From Bacillota bacterium (lineage in GTDB: Bacteria > Bacillota > DTU025), in assembly GCA_003456765.1 (NCBI GenBank), contig DMOT01000204.1:1-5082 (forward strand): a stretch of DNA of 5,082 nucleotides, given 5' to 3'. Positions 1 through 5,082 of this stretch are shown here, piece after piece. Position 1 is the stretch's first letter; each line of letters begins with the position of its first letter. The translations under genes and the position numbers were made by a program. Below the pieces are notes generated by a model, which did no database searches, had not been told where the DNA came from, and worked only from the letters and a program-made list of their open reading frames with translations.

Positions 1-758
1 GGAATCCTGATCCCTACGGTCTCGTAAATCGGTTCGACCTTGTGGCATGTGGCACACCCATTCGGATCAGCTATGATATCTTCGTGGCAGGGAATGCACG
101 AATTATGGCCCACCTGCTCCATCTTCACATCTTCGTCGAATTCTCTGGGTACGACGTGGCAATTGGCGCACAACAATCCCATGTCTGTATGAAGCAGCTG
201 AGGAATCCTCACCACATCAGTTTCAATGATCCAATCGGCCGTGCGACACTTCGTGCATGTCTCCAAATCCGTAATAATCGCCTCGTGGCATTCGATGCAA
301 GTCGCATGGGTCATGCCCGTGGGCGTTGTACCCTGCTCTCCGTGAATCTCGCCACCGTGGCATGATGCACAGTCAAGCCCCACCTCCCCGTGGAGGAAGT
401 GAGGTACTGTCATTACCTCGGTATCCGTTATGTTCGCAGCCTTCCCGTGGCACTTGAGGCAGAACTCATCGCCCACCTCAATGTCGGGGGGAGCTGTCAC
501 CCCGGATGCCTCCGCCTTCTTCATGCGATTCAGATCCAACCTGGCTTTGATCCACCCTGAAACACCAGGTTCAATATGGCATTCCGCGCACCCAACACTC
601 GCATGGTTGCTCTGGCTCCAGGATTCATGGTATGGCAACATAGAGTGGCAAGATCCGCAGTAATCCGAATCCTCCTGACTCTCTATTACGGATACTCCGA
701 TCCAAATGGCTGCTACAACAACTACCAAGATCAGTGCTTGCTTCTTTCGCATCGACAA
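1..758 (-). CDS. membrane-anchored multiheme c-type cytochrome (NapC/cytochrome c3-like), 3' end cut by the window edge
   Basis: Reading leftward from 758 the frame is open for 252 codons with no stop before the edge, so this is the N-terminal part of a longer protein. Residues 7-25 form one hydrophobic helix after MSMRKK, a likely uncleaved signal anchor that places the haem domain outside the membrane. Eight CXXCH haem c sites follow: CGSCH (34), CAECH (57), CLKCH (100), CASCH (130), CIECH (154), CANCH (197), CIPCH (221) and CATCH (235). A ninth site is altered to CTKCR (168). The first two sites and the residues between them resemble the start of NapC/NrfH quinol-linked cytochromes. The rest is a repeated triheme unit. 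The start is taken as TTG at 758, because a strong AGAGGAGGT lies 7 bases before it; the in-frame ATG at 752 would be 13 bases away. The gene lies 34 bases after rex. The likely role is electron transfer between the membrane pool and an external partner. The exact donor and acceptor cannot be told. Confidence 0.9.
   Translation of the reverse strand, partial: MSMRKKQALILVVVVAAIWIGVSVIESQEDSDYCGSCHSMLPYHESWSQSNHASVGCAECHIEPGVSGWIKARLDLNRMKKAEASGVTAPPDIEVGDEFCLKCHGKAANITDTEVMTVPHFLHGEVGLDCASCHGGEIHGEQGTTPTGMTHATCIECHEAIITDLETCTKCRTADWIIETDVVRIPQLLHTDMGLLCANCHVVPREFDEDVKMEQVGHNSCIPCHEDIIADPNGCATCHKVEPIYETVGIRI
3..404 (-). repeat. two tandem copies of a 67-residue triheme module inside the cytochrome gene
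   Basis: Residues 119-185 (204-404) and 186-252 (3-203) align without any gap. The haem Cys at 130, 154 and 168 fall exactly 67 residues before those at 197, 221 and 235. About 25 of 67 residues are identical by eye, including P-x-x-L-H at the start, G-L-x-C-A-x-C-H, C-I-x-C-H-E-x-I-I-x-D and a closing I-x-E-T-x-x-x-R-I. The nucleotide copies have diverged, so this is an old duplication of a protein module and not a recent DNA repeat. Confidence 0.85.
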
Positions 759-792: not shown

Positions 793-1470
793 TCAATGGG
801 TAGTATAAAACGCAAGGCTTTGCAGTTCCAACGTAAGGTCTGCCGAATACACCTTGACATCCTCAGGCACAACAAGGTTTACAGGGGCAAAATTCAAGAT
901 AGCCTTGATGCCTGCCTTCACACATTCGTACGCAACTGCCTCGGTGCTGTCAGGGGGCACCGCAAGCACCATGATCTCAAGGCCAAGCTCGTCACATTTG
1001 GCTGCAAGCTGATCTGCGTGATAAACAGGAACATGCGCGTATGTGATGCCAACCTTCTCGGGGTCGACGTCAAAGGCCGCGACAATGCGCAAGCTCTCTG
1101 GGACCCAGTGCTTTGGATCGCCCGTGTCACTTGAGCTGCCCATGCGGGCAAGGGCATTGTGGTGCAGCAAGGCGCGGCCCAGGTTCCCGAGGCCAACAAG
1201 GCCCACATTGACATCTCTGGTCAACCCAAGTATCTCTCTCAGCTTATTCCGCAAGAACTTCACATCGTAACCAATGCCTTGTTTTCCAAAATCCCCAAAC
1301 AACGCAAGATCCTTCCTGATCTGCGCCGGAGTGACACCTGTCCACCCTCCCAGCTGACTGGATGAGACTGTAGCCTCGTCCTTGCGATCGAAATCCTCTA
1401 CCGCCCTCAGGTAGAGTGGAAGCCTCCTCACTACTACATCCGATATCTTCGGGATCTTGTCCTGCTTCAT
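793..1470 (-). CDS. rex: redox-sensing transcriptional repressor Rex
   Basis: The product has 225 residues. Rex senses the NADH/NAD+ ratio and represses fermentation, hydrogenase and respiratory genes when NADH is low. The N-terminal winged helix (about 1-80) carries the family signatures RRLPLYLR (15-22) and TPAQIRKDLALFGDFG (47-62), followed by KQGIGYDV. The Rossmann domain shows GLVGLGNLGRALL (90-102) and VAAFDVDPEKVG (130-141). The C-terminal swapped helix has NFAPVNLVVPEDV and the typical ending DLTLELQSLAFY. The frame is open further upstream, but homologues begin at this Met, which follows GGGAGG by 4 bases. Its ATG overlaps the stop of the RseC-like gene as ATGA, which suggests coupled translation. 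An odd point is extra sequence of roughly 15 residues (about 108-126) between the first Rossmann helix and the second strand. Usual Rex proteins are about 205-215 residues long. Confidence 0.96.
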   Translation of the reverse strand: MKQDKIPKISDVVVRRLPLYLRAVEDFDRKDEATVSSSQLGGWTGVTPAQIRKDLALFGDFGKQGIGYDVKFLRNKLREILGLTRDVNVGLVGLGNLGRALLHHNALARMGSSSDTGDPKHWVPESLRIVAAFDVDPEKVGITYAHVPVYHADQLAAKCDELGLEIMVLAVPPDSTEAVAYECVKAGIKAILNFAPVNLVVPEDVKVYSADLTLELQSLAFYTTH

Positions 1471-1955
1471 TCGGCCTCCCTCATCTTGTGAGCCCGCGTG
1501 ACTCCTGCTGCATTCGATGCGCACTCAAGGTTGTCCGCATCCACAACAGCTACAGCAACAGACGCAAAGGCTTCCGGTCCAAGAGAACGGTCGTAGAGGT
1601 GGATTCCGTAGTAGCCGGCAGCAAGGAGAAGGATTCCCCCAATGGCCGCTGCAAGCGAAGGATTTATCGCCAACCCAAGGCTTCGAGCCACGGGCGCCCC
1701 CATCGCCAGCCCGGCCAGAAACATAACCAATGGCACTCCGTATGCGAGAAGGACTGCACGAACCAGATCCTTCCCGGGAAGCTCCAGGGCTACTGTGTCG
1801 CCGACCTTTGCTCCGGCGTCGTTTCTCACAGTCACCGCATGCGGACGATTATCCATCAACTGGCACGCACCGCAGCTCTTGCAAGCAGCCGGACGACTTA
1901 CCAGGACTTCTGCAAACCTGCCGCGAACACGCTGAACAATACCGAATTGCTTCAA
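1467..1955 (-). CDS. RseC/MucC-like membrane protein (SoxR-reducing system RseC family)
   Basis: The product has 162 residues. The N-terminal soluble part holds a Cys cluster, C25-K-S-C28-G-A-C31, after a small strand-rich start (GIVQRVRGRFAEVLVSR). This is the usual RseC layout. Two hydrophobic helices follow at about 67-90 and 99-118, joined by a short loop, and then a polar tail. RseC relatives work with Rnf-type electron transport in reducing SoxR, or modulate sigma-E. In anaerobes the role is unclear, and a redox or Fe-S function of the Cys cluster is inference. The start is TTG, overlapping the preceding stop as TTGA. An in-frame TGA lies six codons upstream and no ATG or GTG lies between, so TTG is the only sensible start. 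Its upstream ribosome site is weak (AAAGGA about 10 bases away), which fits coupled translation from the HATPase gene. The gene overlaps rex by 4 bases at its other end. Confidence 0.85.
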   Translation of the reverse strand: MKQFGIVQRVRGRFAEVLVSRPAACKSCGACQLMDNRPHAVTVRNDAGAKVGDTVALELPGKDLVRAVLLAYGVPLVMFLAGLAMGAPVARSLGLAINPSLAAAIGGILLLAAGYYGIHLYDRSLGPEAFASVAVAVVDADNLECASNAAGVTRAHKMREAE

Positions 1956-2494
1956 GCCCCCATCGTCCTTTCACCCTCTGCCACGAAGTCGCGAATGAAC
2001 GCCACAACCTCTGGATGTGATAGAGGAATGCTGCCCAACTCCGACCGAATCTCTCGAGTATCGAGATGAAATGAACTATCTCCTCGAAGATGATTATACA
2101 CAAAATCCAGGTCCGGGTTACAGGCTACCAACACGAGGAGCGTCTCTGCCATGTTTCCCAAGGGCGCTCGATCTATATGCGAGAGCTGGAACTGGGCAGT
2201 CACCTTCGAGCCCACATTCTGCTTGCTCACGATCTCCACGCCTCCGCCACATCTTTCGGCCGCCGCAGCCAGAAGCGGAATCCCTAGCCCGACCCGGCGC
2301 GTCGTTCGAGACGTGACAAAGGGGTCACCCACCCTCTGCACAACTTCTTCAGACATTCCCCTCCCGTCATCAGTTACGCTAATGGTCATCATGTCATTGG
2401 CCACATCTTCGACTACATCGATCTGGACAAGCCGGGCCCCCGCAGCTATGGAGTTTTGCGCTATGTCGAGTATGTGCATTGAAAGCTCCCTCAT
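1952..2494 (-). CDS. small HATPase-only ATP-binding protein (GHKL fold, no phosphoacceptor domain)
   Basis: The product has 180 residues. It starts MRELSMHILDIAQNSI, so the N box (N14) is almost at the N-terminus. The G1 box is DDGRGM (42-47) and the G2-like glycine segment is VGLGIPLL (68-75). A strand with GSKVTAQFQL (95-104) closes the HATPase fold. No dimerisation helix with a phosphorylatable His is present, so this is not a classical sensor kinase. It is closer in architecture to stand-alone kinases or anti-sigma factors. The tail (about 106-180) is an uncharacterised extension with the hydrophobic strand ETLLVLVACNPDLDFVY. The frame is open back to 2662 inside the PHP gene, but that part looks non-coding and homologues that I recall begin with M-[RK]-E-L. 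A second Met (M6, base 2479) with AGGGAG 6 bases before it is an alternative start. Proteins of this type recur beside hydrogenase clusters in Clostridia. A signalling role is likely, but the partner is unknown. Confidence 0.85.
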   Translation of the reverse strand: MRELSMHILDIAQNSIAAGARLVQIDVVEDVANDMMTISVTDDGRGMSEEVVQRVGDPFVTSRTTRRVGLGIPLLAAAAERCGGGVEIVSKQNVGSKVTAQFQLSHIDRAPLGNMAETLLVLVACNPDLDFVYNHLRGDSSFHLDTREIRSELGSIPLSHPEVVAFIRDFVAEGERTMGA

Positions 2495-2516
2495 GCTGCA
2501 CCGCCATTTCTGTACA

Positions 2517-2531
2517 GTCTGCCCCGCAGAC
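2517..2531. other. short perfect hairpin between the PHP and HATPase genes
   Basis: A 6-base inverted repeat (GTCTGC / GCAGAC) flanks a 3-base loop within the 61-base gap. There is no run of T after it on the minus strand, so it is not a standard terminator. It could attenuate or stabilise the transcript between the two genes, or be chance. Confidence 0.3.
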
Positions 2532-2555
2532 GGGATTTGCCACGAACGAATGTCG

Positions 2556-3299
2556 TTACTCCACTTGAACCCATCTTCCTGCCTCCCCGCGAAGAGCAAG
2601 CGCGATCTCATCAAACGTGGGCTCTTCGATCCCAAAAAGCGAACAGCCCAACCCGATCTCATTCAGGAAATGGGCATCAGAAAAGGAGACCAGAGTACGG
2701 CCGCATATCCCGGGGAACGCCGTTCTGGCCTCGTCTCCGGTAATGATCCTCGATATTTCCAGTGCGGGAATGTCCAGATGCTCAGGGACGAATCCCAGCT
2801 GGGCCAGGATGCTGAACGCGCGCCTGTCAACATGGCACGGCACGCAGATGCCTCCCAGGGCCCCAACGCCATACACAACCTCGTCTAGCGACAACGATGC
2901 CGGGGCAGCCAGGAGAGACGTCTCCTGCACAATATCGCCGGTCTGCGGCGAAAACACCCATTGCTCTCCGAAGATCGCAGGGACATTCGTCCCGGGTGCC
3001 CTGGAACTCGCCACCTTAGATTCCCATTCTGCCATAGCGCGGGCGTCTGGAAGAAGAGTGAGCACATGGACTTCTTCCTTCGTGCAGACCTCCATGCCGC
3101 AGATTACCACAAGACCTGTGCCGGCGGCGGCACTTGCCACAGCCTCCACGTTTGCAGCCGAGTTATGGTCGGCAGGAGCAATGATGTCGAGGCCCAGTTC
3201 GAGACAGCGCCCGACTATTGCCTGCGGACTCATCTCCCTGGCCGCGCACGGCGACAGATAAGTGTGGACGTGCAGGTCGGCGGCGAAGGCCCGAACCAT
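2556..3299 (-). CDS. PHP-domain metal-dependent phosphoesterase
   Basis: The product has 247 residues and is a full PHP-family TIM-like barrel. The metal-binding motifs can be read in order: DLHVHT (8-13, with H10 and H12), ADHN (43-46), GMEV (68-71, E70) with H78 in EEVHVL, CHVDR (155-159, H156) and SDAH (206-209, D207 and H209). All positions needed for a multi-metal phosphoesterase site are present, so it should be active. The substrate cannot be told from sequence; family members include histidinol phosphatase, nucleotide phosphatases and the 3'-5' exonucleases of polymerases. There is no attached polymerase domain. The gene starts only 2 bases after the DRTGG gene stop, with GGGAG about 10 bases upstream of ATG. 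The tight position between DRTGG and HATPase genes suggests a phosphate-removing or nucleotide-hydrolysing step in the same signalling or assembly pathway, which is inference. Confidence 0.9.
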   Translation of the reverse strand: MVRAFAADLHVHTYLSPCAAREMSPQAIVGRCLELGLDIIAPADHNSAANVEAVASAAAGTGLVVICGMEVCTKEEVHVLTLLPDARAMAEWESKVASSRAPGTNVPAIFGEQWVFSPQTGDIVQETSLLAAPASLSLDEVVYGVGALGGICVPCHVDRRAFSILAQLGFVPEHLDIPALEISRIITGDEARTAFPGICGRTLVSFSDAHFLNEIGLGCSLFGIEEPTFDEIALALRGEAGRWVQVE

Positions 3300-3301
3300 G
3301 T

Positions 3302-3646
3302 CTAAAGGTCTCCCCTGACACCCAGCTCATATAGCCTGCCTACCGCCTCGAACGCCGACATCTCGGTTGACAGGATCGGCACTCCTTCAGCTTCTGCCCT
3401 TGCGATCCCGTCGTCGTTCATCTCAAGCCCGCCTGCGATCACCACTGCTGAAAGGTCAAGAAGCAGCGCAACTGCCACAACATTCTGGTGGACCTGCGAG
3501 GTCAGCCATATGCCGCCTTCGCTTGCGTTGCCCATCACGTCGCTGAGAAGGTCTGACGCATAACCCGATGTTACTTCGCGGTCAAGCGACCTGCCTCCTG
3601 CGACACATCTGAAGCCGAGAGTGTCGGCGATTTCGCGCACAGTCAC
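3302..3646 (-). CDS. stand-alone DRTGG-domain protein
   Basis: The product has 114 residues, about the length of a single DRTGG domain. Readable features are an N-terminal helix (TVREIADTLGF), the segment LDREVTSGYASDLLSDVM (21-38) that contains the family core, WLTSQVHQNVVAVALLL (47-63) and a C-terminal PILSTEMSAFEAVGRLYELGV. The domain is also found in bacterial phosphotransacetylases and next to CBS domains, where it is thought to be regulatory. Its ligand is not known to me. Start is GTG at 3646, with AGGAGG 8 bases upstream; the GTG overlaps the hydrogenase-like stop as GTGA. Very similar single-domain proteins occur beside [FeFe]-hydrogenase genes in Clostridia, so a functional tie to the preceding gene is likely. 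It has no Cys motif for an iron-sulfur cluster and no membrane segment. Confidence 0.88.
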   Translation of the reverse strand: MTVREIADTLGFRCVAGGRSLDREVTSGYASDLLSDVMGNASEGGIWLTSQVHQNVVAVALLLDLSAVVIAGGLEMNDDGIARAEAEGVPILSTEMSAFEAVGRLYELGVRGDL

Positions 3647-4977
3647 CTGTCGTTCCTCCTTTGCAGCGACGGAAGGTCCGTCTTGGCCAATTTGAGGAGC
3701 TCCTCGGCAACCTCTTCCATGGCCTCCCGCAATTTGAACACGCAGTCGACCTCAGAGGCGTAGCCACACACAACATCCTCCGCATGGGCGCGGCATGTAG
3801 GCGACCCGCAGGCACCGCAATCCAATCCCGGAAGCTCGGCCAAAAGCCGTTCCAGTTCGCTCATCTTCGCGATGGCAACCTCAAGGCGGGGATCGATCGC
3901 CAGGCCGGCAACGGCTGCAAGCTCGCCTTCGATCGCAAAAAAGTCCTCCCCATACTCGTCGACGATCTGCTTCGCCTCTGCACGAGCCTGTGCGGAATCG
4001 GCTTCAACGGCCTCTGAGATCTTTATCATCCGGGCCCGCGCCACGAAGGGATTCTCCACAGTTGCCGGGCCTCCAACACATCCTGCAGGGCACGCCAAAG
4101 CCTCGATATAGTCCACTCCGGCCAATCGGCCGTCGTCTACCTCTTCAAGGAGATCAAGGACATTGTGTATTCCGTCCACAGCCAACACGTTATTCAAGCC
4201 TAATGCCTTCAGTTCTCCGCTGCTGTTTGCCCATCCAAAGCCAAAGCTCGACCCTCTGTGCATCGTCCGGGCGGTGCCTCCCCGCCCCATGCGTGTTATG
4301 AGGTCTCCATATATGTCCGATATCGAGATCGCGCCATTGACGTAGGACTTTTGTGAGCCCAAGGGGGCGAGGACAGCGGTCACCTTGGCTGCGCAGGGCG
4401 TGATGAAGAAGACCCCAATGCGCTCGTCGGGAATTCCGAGCCTGCCTGATGCTTCAGCCCGCGCCACCCGGGCCGCCGCGTACATCGGACTCTCCACTCT
4501 GGCCACGTGGGGAAGGAGGTTGGGGAATCTCACCTGTATCAGGCGGACTACAGCAGGGCAAGCTCCTGAAATCACCGGCCGAAGCTCTGGAAAAGACTTC
4601 AGGTGCCTGCGGGTGCACTCGGTTACGATGTCAGCGCCGAACGATACATCGCATACTTCGTCAAAGCCTATCTCCTGGAGAGCCCACACGATCTCATCCG
4701 GCCCTGAAGCCCTCTCCAATTGCGAGTAGAGGGCAGGCGCAGGCAAAGCAATAGTGTAATCGTATTGTCGAAGATCCTCAAGGGAGTTGGCAATGATAAT
4801 CTTGGCGTGGTTTTCGCAGGTCCTGACACACTCTCCACAATCAATGCACCTGGCAGCGTTGATTACAGCCTTCCCTTCGCGCACTCTGATGGCCTCAGTC
4901 GGGCAGCGTTTAATGCAGTTAGTGCAGCCTTTGCACTTCTCCTCGAGGAGTGCAACTGAGTGAAACCGGCTCTCCAT
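3643..4977 (-). CDS. putative sensory-type [FeFe]-hydrogenase-like protein with two ferredoxin clusters and a C-terminal Fe-S domain
   Basis: The product has 444 residues. Residues 15-25 and 44-54 form two CxxCxxCxxxC ferredoxin motifs for two [4Fe-4S] clusters. The hydrogenase catalytic domain spans about 70-335. Its three signatures are degenerate: L1 is SGACP (137-141), L2 is TPCAAKVTA (193-201) and L3 is EALACPAGCVGG (292-303). The four Cys expected to hold the H-cluster (C140, C195, C296, C300) and the Lys of L2 (K198) are kept. The proton-relay Cys of L1 is Ala (A139), and the Glu ending L2 is Ala (A201). This matches divergent, slow enzymes thought to sense H2 (HydS/group D type) more than fermentative hydrogenases. 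Residues 383-412 form another Fe-S domain, LDCGACGSPTC plus a later Cys (387, 390, 395, 412), as in RnfB and related proteins. There is no PAS or kinase domain, so any signal must pass to separate proteins. No earlier ATG, GTG or TTG lies in frame before the upstream stop. Confidence 0.9.
   Translation of the reverse strand: MESRFHSVALLEEKCKGCTNCIKRCPTEAIRVREGKAVINAARCIDCGECVRTCENHAKIIIANSLEDLRQYDYTIALPAPALYSQLERASGPDEIVWALQEIGFDEVCDVSFGADIVTECTRRHLKSFPELRPVISGACPAVVRLIQVRFPNLLPHVARVESPMYAAARVARAEASGRLGIPDERIGVFFITPCAAKVTAVLAPLGSQKSYVNGAISISDIYGDLITRMGRGGTARTMHRGSSFGFGWANSSGELKALGLNNVLAVDGIHNVLDLLEEVDDGRLAGVDYIEALACPAGCVGGPATVENPFVARARMIKISEAVEADSAQARAEAKQIVDEYGEDFFAIEGELAAVAGLAIDPRLEVAIAKMSELERLLAELPGLDCGACGSPTCRAHAEDVVCGYASEVDCVFKLREAMEEVAEELLKLAKTDLPSLQRRNDR
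3655..3660 (-). promoter_or_regulatory. Shine-Dalgarno supporting the GTG start of the DRTGG gene
   Basis: AGGAGG on the minus strand is 8 bases before GTG 3646 and lies inside the end of the hydrogenase-like gene. It fixes the non-ATG start that overlaps the previous stop. Confidence 0.7.
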
Positions 4978-4988
4978 GCCCAGTTCAA

Positions 4989-4995
4989 CCTCCCC
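4989..4995 (-). promoter_or_regulatory. Shine-Dalgarno of the hydrogenase-like gene, at long spacing
   Basis: GGGGAGG is 11 bases before the ATG at 4977, longer than the usual 5-9. A CTG codon two codons before the ATG would sit at 5 bases, but homologues that I recall begin near the ATG, so the ATG is kept. Confidence 0.5.
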
Positions 4996-5036
4996 ATGGA
5001 ACGCGAACTTGCCAGGGTTCTGGCTGCTTCATTGGG

Positions 5037-5082
5037 CTACGCTATCTTGATTGATGCGGTTACAGTCGTCCCGCGTCCCACC
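5037..5082 (-). CDS. C-terminal end of a probable HATPase/anti-sigma-type (RsbT/RsbW-like) protein, partial
   Basis: The last 14 codons of a minus-strand frame enter from the right edge and end with TAG at 5037-5039. They read VGRGTTVTASIKIA. G-x-G-T-T-V-T followed by a short strand is the usual closing segment of GHKL ATPase domains such as RsbT, RsbW and sensor kinases. The gene ends 59 bases before the hydrogenase-like gene on the same strand, and I recall anti-sigma-type ATPases beside such hydrogenase genes in Clostridia. Only 14 residues are visible, so the assignment rests on one motif plus context. The other two minus-strand frames also hit stops close to the edge (TGA and TAA) but show no recognisable motif. 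Confidence 0.45.
   Translation of the reverse strand, partial: VGRGTTVTASIKIA

Follow-up and report, generated by a model that had tools for sequence, protein, structure and literature searches.

The window analysed here is one entire contig, DMOT01000204.1, of 5,082 bases, from a Bacillota genome that is about 73% complete and spread over 343 contigs. It carries the gene for an [FeFe] hydrogenase, hereafter HydS, within a closely spaced set of possible signalling partners. The gene order on the minus strand was RsbW-like tail, HydS, DRTGG, PHP, HATPase, RseC, Rex and multihaem cytochrome, with spacings from HydS through Rex of -4, 2, 61, -4 and -4 bases. HydS (3643..4977; minus strand, as are all the genes given here) encodes 444 amino acids with group D (M2e) features; a small DRTGG gene, DRTGG2 (3302..3646), overlapped it by 4 bases, and the gene of a predicted PHP phosphoesterase (2556..3299) followed after 2 bases. 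The HATPase gene (1952..2494), with a histidine-kinase-type catalytic domain (PF02518, 9e-14), began 61 bases after PHP; the tight packing described in the initial annotation thus held for HydS, DRTGG2 and PHP, and did not extend to the HATPase. At the upstream contig end, codons 5081-5037 read VGRGTTVTASIKIA and then a stop. This tail (5037..5082) matched the C-terminus of a complete RsbW-like gene in a genome of the same genus (L011:7398-7937), and it was therefore assigned, as the initial annotation had suspected of an RsbT/RsbW-like tail, as the 3' end of a SpoIIAB/RsbW-like GHKL kinase gene truncated by the contig end. Locus L011 (G001:C145), whose HydS was 90% identical to that of the window, supplied the missing upstream end, with a first DRTGG gene, DRTGG1, at 6985-7434 ahead of the RsbW gene. 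Since the window is a whole contig, this first gene of the module falls outside it.

The same arrangement was found around HydS in many other genomes. A scan of genome contigs with HydS returned 79 loci, and loci from further genomes were added. HydS loci were defined by a hidden Markov model score above 380 bits, under which split or frameshifted copies may drop out; there were 200 such loci, 195 after removal of identical or contained HydS, and 161 with flanks of more than 1.3 kb on the upstream side and 3.5 kb on the downstream side. RsbW was the most constant neighbour, lying immediately upstream of HydS in 153 of these 161 loci, and was preceded by DRTGG1 in 136. On the other side DRTGG2 followed HydS directly in 149 loci and was itself followed by PHP in 134. 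The full order DRTGG1-RsbW-HydS-DRTGG2-PHP was present in 125/161 loci, and a HATPase gene belonged to the gene chain in 127; these five genes plus one HATPase form the module core. The genes are real. Random association in other genomes would, by the initial annotation, have refuted the module; with this recurrence, and with fusions between neighbouring genes, it was not refuted, and the set is not a chance association. Loci with the full order were labelled Bacillota or Atribacteria/Caldatribacterium; DRTGG1-RsbW-HydS as a trio occurred in Spirochaetes and at contig ends labelled Syntrophobacterales and Coprothermobacter. HydC or HydB, of the bifurcating hydrogenase HydABC, was in the chain in 111 of the 149 loci with 6 kb downstream. 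HydC-HATPase junctions numbered 108 and HATPase-HydB junctions 114 among the 200 loci, so that relatives of the window HATPase often stand between hydC and hydB.

The HydS of the window matched the Pfam families Fe_hyd_lg_C (7e-32), FeS (8e-11) and Fer4, and no PAS domain was found in it by Pfam scan at E 0.001, as expected of a hydrogenase that had been described as lacking a fused sensory domain. It has two N-terminal [4Fe-4S] motifs, an H-cluster domain and a C-terminal Cx2Cx4Cx16C motif (C387, C390, C395 and C412), with A139 at the position of CpI C299 and T193 at that of CpI M353. The NCBIfam group A and B hydrogenase models scored far under their cut-offs. Among 144 loci scoring above 430 bits, with each gene counted where coverage was good, the N-terminal cysteines were present in 144/144 and the C-terminal cysteines in 142-143/144; cysteine at the C299 site was found in 0/144 and serine or threonine at the M353 site in 142/144. 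Published criteria for group D (M2e) include the C-terminal Cx2Cx4Cx16C motif, no cysteine at C299, a hydroxyl residue at M353 and no PAS domain (PMC8163306), and by sequence the window HydS agrees with all of them. A defence role was considered and rejected: PADLOC on four window proteins returned one weak BrxP match (19.8 bits), which fell on the ferredoxin part of HydS, and nothing else. Distant planctomycete relatives of HydS (L055-L057, 26-28% identity) had a HATPase fused at their C-terminus and lay near Rex and HydA-like genes; they are a different, kinase-fused hydrogenase.

The partner proteins were compared with known families and folds. The RsbW-like family profile matched only SpoIIAB structures in the PDB at E <= 0.001 (best 5.5e-12), and the first E and the N of its YExExN motif, kept in 136/136 sequences, aligned with E and N of SpoIIAB, which we take to be the catalytic glutamate and the metal-binding asparagine. 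By its profile and residues the full-length gene of the relatives, of which the window holds the tail only, would encode a SpoIIAB-type GHKL Ser/Thr kinase, with kinase activity and substrate both predicted. A Pfam scan of seven window proteins found no STAS, PP2C or sigma-factor domain, the search for these having covered no other part of the genome, and the set is therefore not a standard partner switch. DRTGG2 scored 28.7 bits against PF07085 (cut-off 25.2); its AlphaFold model (mean predicted local distance difference test, pLDDT, 96.0) matched in Foldseek the AF1212 DRTGG domain (1.2e-6), HPr kinase (5.6e-6) and the DRTGG region of a CBS-pyrophosphatase. Its sequence profile gave weak PDB matches (0.003-0.005), which did not surpass those to designed proteins. 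With a Pfam score above cut-off and a modelled DRTGG fold, DRTGG2 qualifies as a predicted DRTGG-domain protein. The invariant residues of the family were the D and S of a DxxS motif at a helix start and a T at a strand end.

The PHP protein (PF02811) retained H10, H12, D44, H45, E70, H78, H156, D208 and H210, nine residues that are presumably the metal ligands of the family; each was conserved in 111-115 of the 115 relatives compared, with gaps accounting for the others. Its model (pLDDT 96.6) had EndoQ as its nearest fold (4.9e-15), and further fold relatives included an AMP/phosphate-bound enzyme and RNase AM. The modelled PHP fold with its ligands points to a phosphoesterase whose substrate can only be predicted, consistent with the intact PHP enzyme of the initial annotation. 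The HATPase gene matched PF02518 and PF13589 only, and no HisKA/DHp phospho-acceptor domain was found in it by Pfam scan, which bears out its description as an ATP-binding protein without a His box. It has a C-terminal extension of about 70 residues, and its profile matched histidine-kinase catalytic domains, best of all that of sporulation kinase B (1e-15).

HydS, PHP and RsbW were also searched for in 398 genomes of the phylum (cut-offs E <= 1e-60 for HydS, 1e-14 for PHP and 1e-30 for RsbW, the latter with a CBS-RsbW query), with at most 4 to 6 candidates scored per genome; members of the same genus do not count as independent. HydS was present in 157 genomes, PHP in 155 and RsbW in 158, and pairwise overlaps were 146 (HydS-PHP), 148 (HydS-RsbW) and 144 (PHP-RsbW), while 11 genomes had HydS only, 9 PHP only and 232 neither. 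At genus level the matches were 93, 92 and 94 of 266 for HydS, PHP and RsbW. The three distributions are nearly coextensive. A second search of the 9 PHP-only and 11 HydS-only genomes, now scoring every candidate, showed that one PHP-only genome (G341) has HydS and another (G100) a split HydS, both adjoining PHP; in two the locus stops at a contig edge, and four carry a CBS form of the module, described below. In the last, G047, decayed HydS and PHP pieces with no RsbW match lay between recognisable DRTGG, HATPase and HydA-like genes (L256, G047:C1:684000-695000); G253, of the same genus, has a complete module (L152). None of the eleven HydS-only genomes gave a PHP match at 1e-8, and in three of them HydS sits at a contig end.

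Neighbouring genes of the module were also found fused. Among 232 loci read, DRTGG1-RsbW fusions occurred in 11 genomes (families f39, f69 and f91), fusions of a CBS pair to RsbW (CBS2-RsbW) at 11 loci in 10 genomes of six families, PHP-HATPase fusions in 6 genomes, all of f14, RsbW-HydS fusions twice (L230 and L237, both f108) and HydS-DRTGG2 fusions twice (L148 and L153, both f36). Pfam confirmed two of the CBS2-RsbW fusions and one of each other kind, the DRTGG of the L153 fusion lying barely above the cut-off. The fused partners are adjacent module genes, a pattern that favours contact of HydS with both RsbW and DRTGG2. A candidate HATPase-HydB-like open frame was seen at L202.

In six genomes the order DRTGG1-[CBS2-RsbW]-DRTGG2-PHP-HATPase was found with no adjacent HydS, and in four others a CBS2-RsbW gene was followed by HydS. 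One genome, G125, had a second CBS-RsbW locus (L318) without DRTGG2 or PHP. Because the CBS-fused RsbW stands in modules without adjacent HydS, and some have both, the hydrogenase and the CBS pair look like interchangeable inputs to one kinase. Two genomes (G305 and G386) carried a HydS locus with a plain RsbW, and a CBS-type locus on a separate contig held their sole PHP match. In a further five, RsbW-HydS was on one contig and Rex-DRTGG1-DRTGG2-PHP-HATPase on another (Rex was not detected in G134). We read the module as two parts, one for input (RsbW plus either HydS or CBS) and one that receives (the DRTGG pair, PHP and the HATPase). The overall reading of the initial annotation, a sensor-type hydrogenase with likely signalling partners encoded by separate genes, was upheld; its composition needed correction, with DRTGG1 added at the start, CBS pairs able to replace HydS, and PHP lost in a minority.

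Outside the conserved core, the window encodes an RseC/MucC-family protein (1467..1955; PF04246, 1.1e-26) that overlaps the HATPase by 4 bases, a Rex-type redox-sensing repressor (793..1470; PF06971 and PF02629, NF003995 above cut-off) that overlaps RseC by 4 bases, and, as an operon neighbour truncated at the contig end, a multihaem cytochrome c with an NapC/NrfH-like N-terminus and cytochrome c7-like repeats (3..752). RseC was in the chain in 17/161 HydS loci. The cytochrome beside Rex and RseC, seen also in L011 and L139-L142, suggests an operon-linked electron-transfer chain in the relatives of the window. Two longer FeFe-hydrogenase-like open frames, of 715 and 589 residues, occur elsewhere in the window genome (L257 on G000:C10 and L258 on G000:C337), the former followed by a further Rex match. 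A Rex-operator-like palindrome was looked for upstream of DRTGG1, and the best-mismatch counts in 167 regions resembled those of one shuffle each and were not used. Five genomes of one genus had an exact TTGTTA-N6-TAACAA near the module start, which resembles what we take to be the Rex operator consensus. At five Atribacterota-type loci (L028, L030, L035, L037 and L058; about 10400-16700) the module leads directly, with no change of strand, into mraZ and mraW (confirmed by Pfam in L037), followed by apparent ftsL, penicillin-binding protein, murE, murF and mraY genes of a division and cell-wall cluster. A Spirochaetaceae locus had a cytidylate-kinase-like gene (L048:9356-10015) after DRTGG1-RsbW-HydS, in place of DRTGG2-PHP.

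Taken together, the window holds most of a conserved module in which, with a probability we put at about one half, the PAS-less group D-type HydS senses H2 or redox state and, as the input, would switch the RsbW-like kinase. The set likely forms a signalling chain by which HydS would report H2 or redox state. In TamHydS, the group D hydrogenase of Thermoanaerobacter mathranii, H2 reduces the H-cluster and an N-terminal cluster and not the C-terminal cluster, and an H2-induced change of secondary structure is cited from earlier work (PMC13104023); a conformational signal, rather than a redox signal through the C-terminal cluster, was therefore assumed. Published work supports only this start of the chain. 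H2 or reduced ferredoxin would alter the conformation of HydS and so gate ATP use by the bound RsbW-like protein, which in turn would phosphorylate, or be held by, the small DRTGG domains on either side, these taking the place of the STAS antagonists of Rsb/SpoII systems. PHP would undo the modification and reset the DRTGG pair, replacing a PP2C phosphatase, and the lone HATPase, often beside HydB, may act at the output as a further partner that depends on ATP. The output would tune electron flow, acting on the bifurcating HydABC of the same operon in most relatives and, in the genome of the window, more probably on the Rex, RseC and cytochrome genes and on hydrogenases encoded elsewhere. More tentatively, the module may represent a new class of signal transduction, in which a SpoIIAB-like kinase is clamped by paired DRTGG domains, reset by PHP and fitted with a plug-in sensor, with a hydrogenase reading H2 or a CBS pair reading adenylates in that role, so that electron disposal would follow H2 pressure and energy charge.

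Several observations weigh against such a chain. The PHP-HATPase, RsbW-HydS and HydS-DRTGG2 fusions were each confined to one family and may each go back to a single event. PHP was absent from at least seven HydS genomes that keep the region and from the chains of three further loci (L016, L017 and L022); PHP is thus usual but dispensable, not essential. RsbW was not immediately upstream in 8 of 164 HydS loci with room for it, and in five of these eight HydS-DRTGG2 ran into HydB, HydC and HydA genes without RsbW or PHP. Three loci (L319-L321) had DRTGG1-RsbW-DRTGG2-HATPase with no HydS, PHP or CBS in the short stretch available, a sensor-less core. Nor is the output universally HydABC, because it is the mra/mur cluster that follows the module in Atribacterota, and in the window the HydABC genes do not adjoin it. 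No invariant residue of the DRTGG proteins could be separated as a phospho-acceptor from structural ones, the DxxS motif standing at a helix start, and the nearest fold of PHP, EndoQ, is a DNA endonuclease domain, not a protein phosphatase. In an exploratory direct-coupling analysis of ten protein pairs, none with HydS, every best score exceeded one shuffled pairing per pair, so that shared ancestry explains the scores, and no single pair stood out.

Other explanations of the gene set were weighed. PHP and the two ATPases might make, bind or degrade a nucleotide that is read by the DRTGG or CBS domains, with no protein phosphorylation. The CBS pairs fused to RsbW would fit such a signal, as would the nucleotide-related fold relatives of PHP, and in CBS-pyrophosphatases AMP, ADP, ATP and Ap4A bind CBS domains beside a DRTGG domain (PMC11172384); with no synthase domain among the module proteins scanned and the SpoIIAB kinase residues kept in RsbW, we nevertheless judge it unlikely. 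It is less probable still that the RsbW-like kinase, the HATPase and PHP directly modify HydABC, another redox enzyme or its assembly, with the DRTGG proteins as scaffolds only. DRTGG domains occur as fusions with RsbW and with HydS, and neither HydB nor HydC was in the chain in 38 of the 149 loci with 6 kb downstream, although the frequent position of the HATPase between hydC and hydB and an annotated histidine kinase, Cthe_0339, within a bifurcating cluster (PMC3990059) both speak for direct control.

That HydS is a slow working enzyme, and its neighbours an ATP-driven set for assembly or repair of its Fe-S clusters and H-cluster, appears very improbable: TamHydS does turn over H2 slowly in vitro (PMC8163306), but the protein was produced in a heterologous host and then activated in vitro by means of a synthetic cofactor (PMC8163306, PMC13104023), and the CBS-type modules retain the gene set with no adjacent HydS. 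The least credible explanation is that PHP, DRTGG and the ATPases are housekeeping genes merely sharing the HydS promoter. Rex, RseC, the cytochrome, hydC and mra/mur genes do vary around the core; the core genes, by contrast, are nearly coextensive over the 398 genomes, fuse with their neighbours and keep the same order under several phylum labels, and in G047 RsbW was lost along with the decay of HydS and PHP.

Switching of an RsbW-like kinase by HydS would bear on a question posed in PMC8163306, namely how group D signal transduction is achieved; the identification of interaction partners was named critical future work in 2026 (PMC13104023). The group D hydrogenases are well studied in vitro, and the module names candidate partner genes for their signalling, so that the question can be put to a direct test using only a few proteins. 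If true, the proposal would also explain what small DRTGG proteins and one PHP subfamily do, and would offer a point at which the H2 and ethanol yield of fermenting Clostridia is controlled. H2 sensing by group D hydrogenases has already been proposed, and the novelty lies in the composition of the module and its exchangeable sensor. The terms DRTGG, PHP and phosphatase are absent from the text of PMC8163306, and operon, kinase, phosphatase and PHP from that of PMC13104023. In the literature searched, which left subscription papers mostly uncovered, no description was found of the DRTGG pair, PHP, the fusions or the CBS swap with this hydrogenase; no paper was found joining hydrogenase, DRTGG and PHP domain, and the sole paper on hydrogenase and DRTGG concerns another protein.

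The closest known systems include the M2e loci of PMC3561251, where these enzymes, Cthe_0335 and Teth39_1463 among them, were classed as sensory from nearby kinases, bifurcating hydrogenases and phylogeny, and where their position upstream of bifurcating hydrogenases, with a 'histidine/serine kinase' between, was taken to indicate regulation. In PMC3608648, too, the bifurcating genes are preceded by a group D-like hydrogenase gene and a histidine kinase. The hydrogenase class, the position and the intervening kinase are common to the PMC3561251 loci and the module described here, which adds to that account the kinase type, the DRTGG pair, PHP and an exchangeable sensor. Group C (M2f), with TmHydS, is described as the closest class to group D and has the C-terminal cluster motif in common (PMC8163306), but there a PAS domain follows that cluster, whereas the window HydS has none. 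TamHydS, a putative sensory group D enzyme, resembles the window HydS in its two N-terminal [4Fe-4S] motifs, the Cx2Cx4Cx16C motif, the lack of cysteine at C299, serine or threonine at M353 and the lack of PAS. The RsbW-like protein belongs by profile to the same GHKL subfamily as the partner-switching kinases SpoIIAB and RsbW, with the catalytic E and N aligned; unlike Rsb/SpoII systems, the module has DRTGG and PHP beside the kinase, with no STAS, PP2C or sigma-factor domain among the window proteins scanned. The regulatory [NiFe] hydrogenase works with the histidine kinase HoxJ. It offers an analogy only, that of an H2 sensor acting through a separate kinase, since the metal enzyme there is unrelated and the kinase is a histidine kinase.

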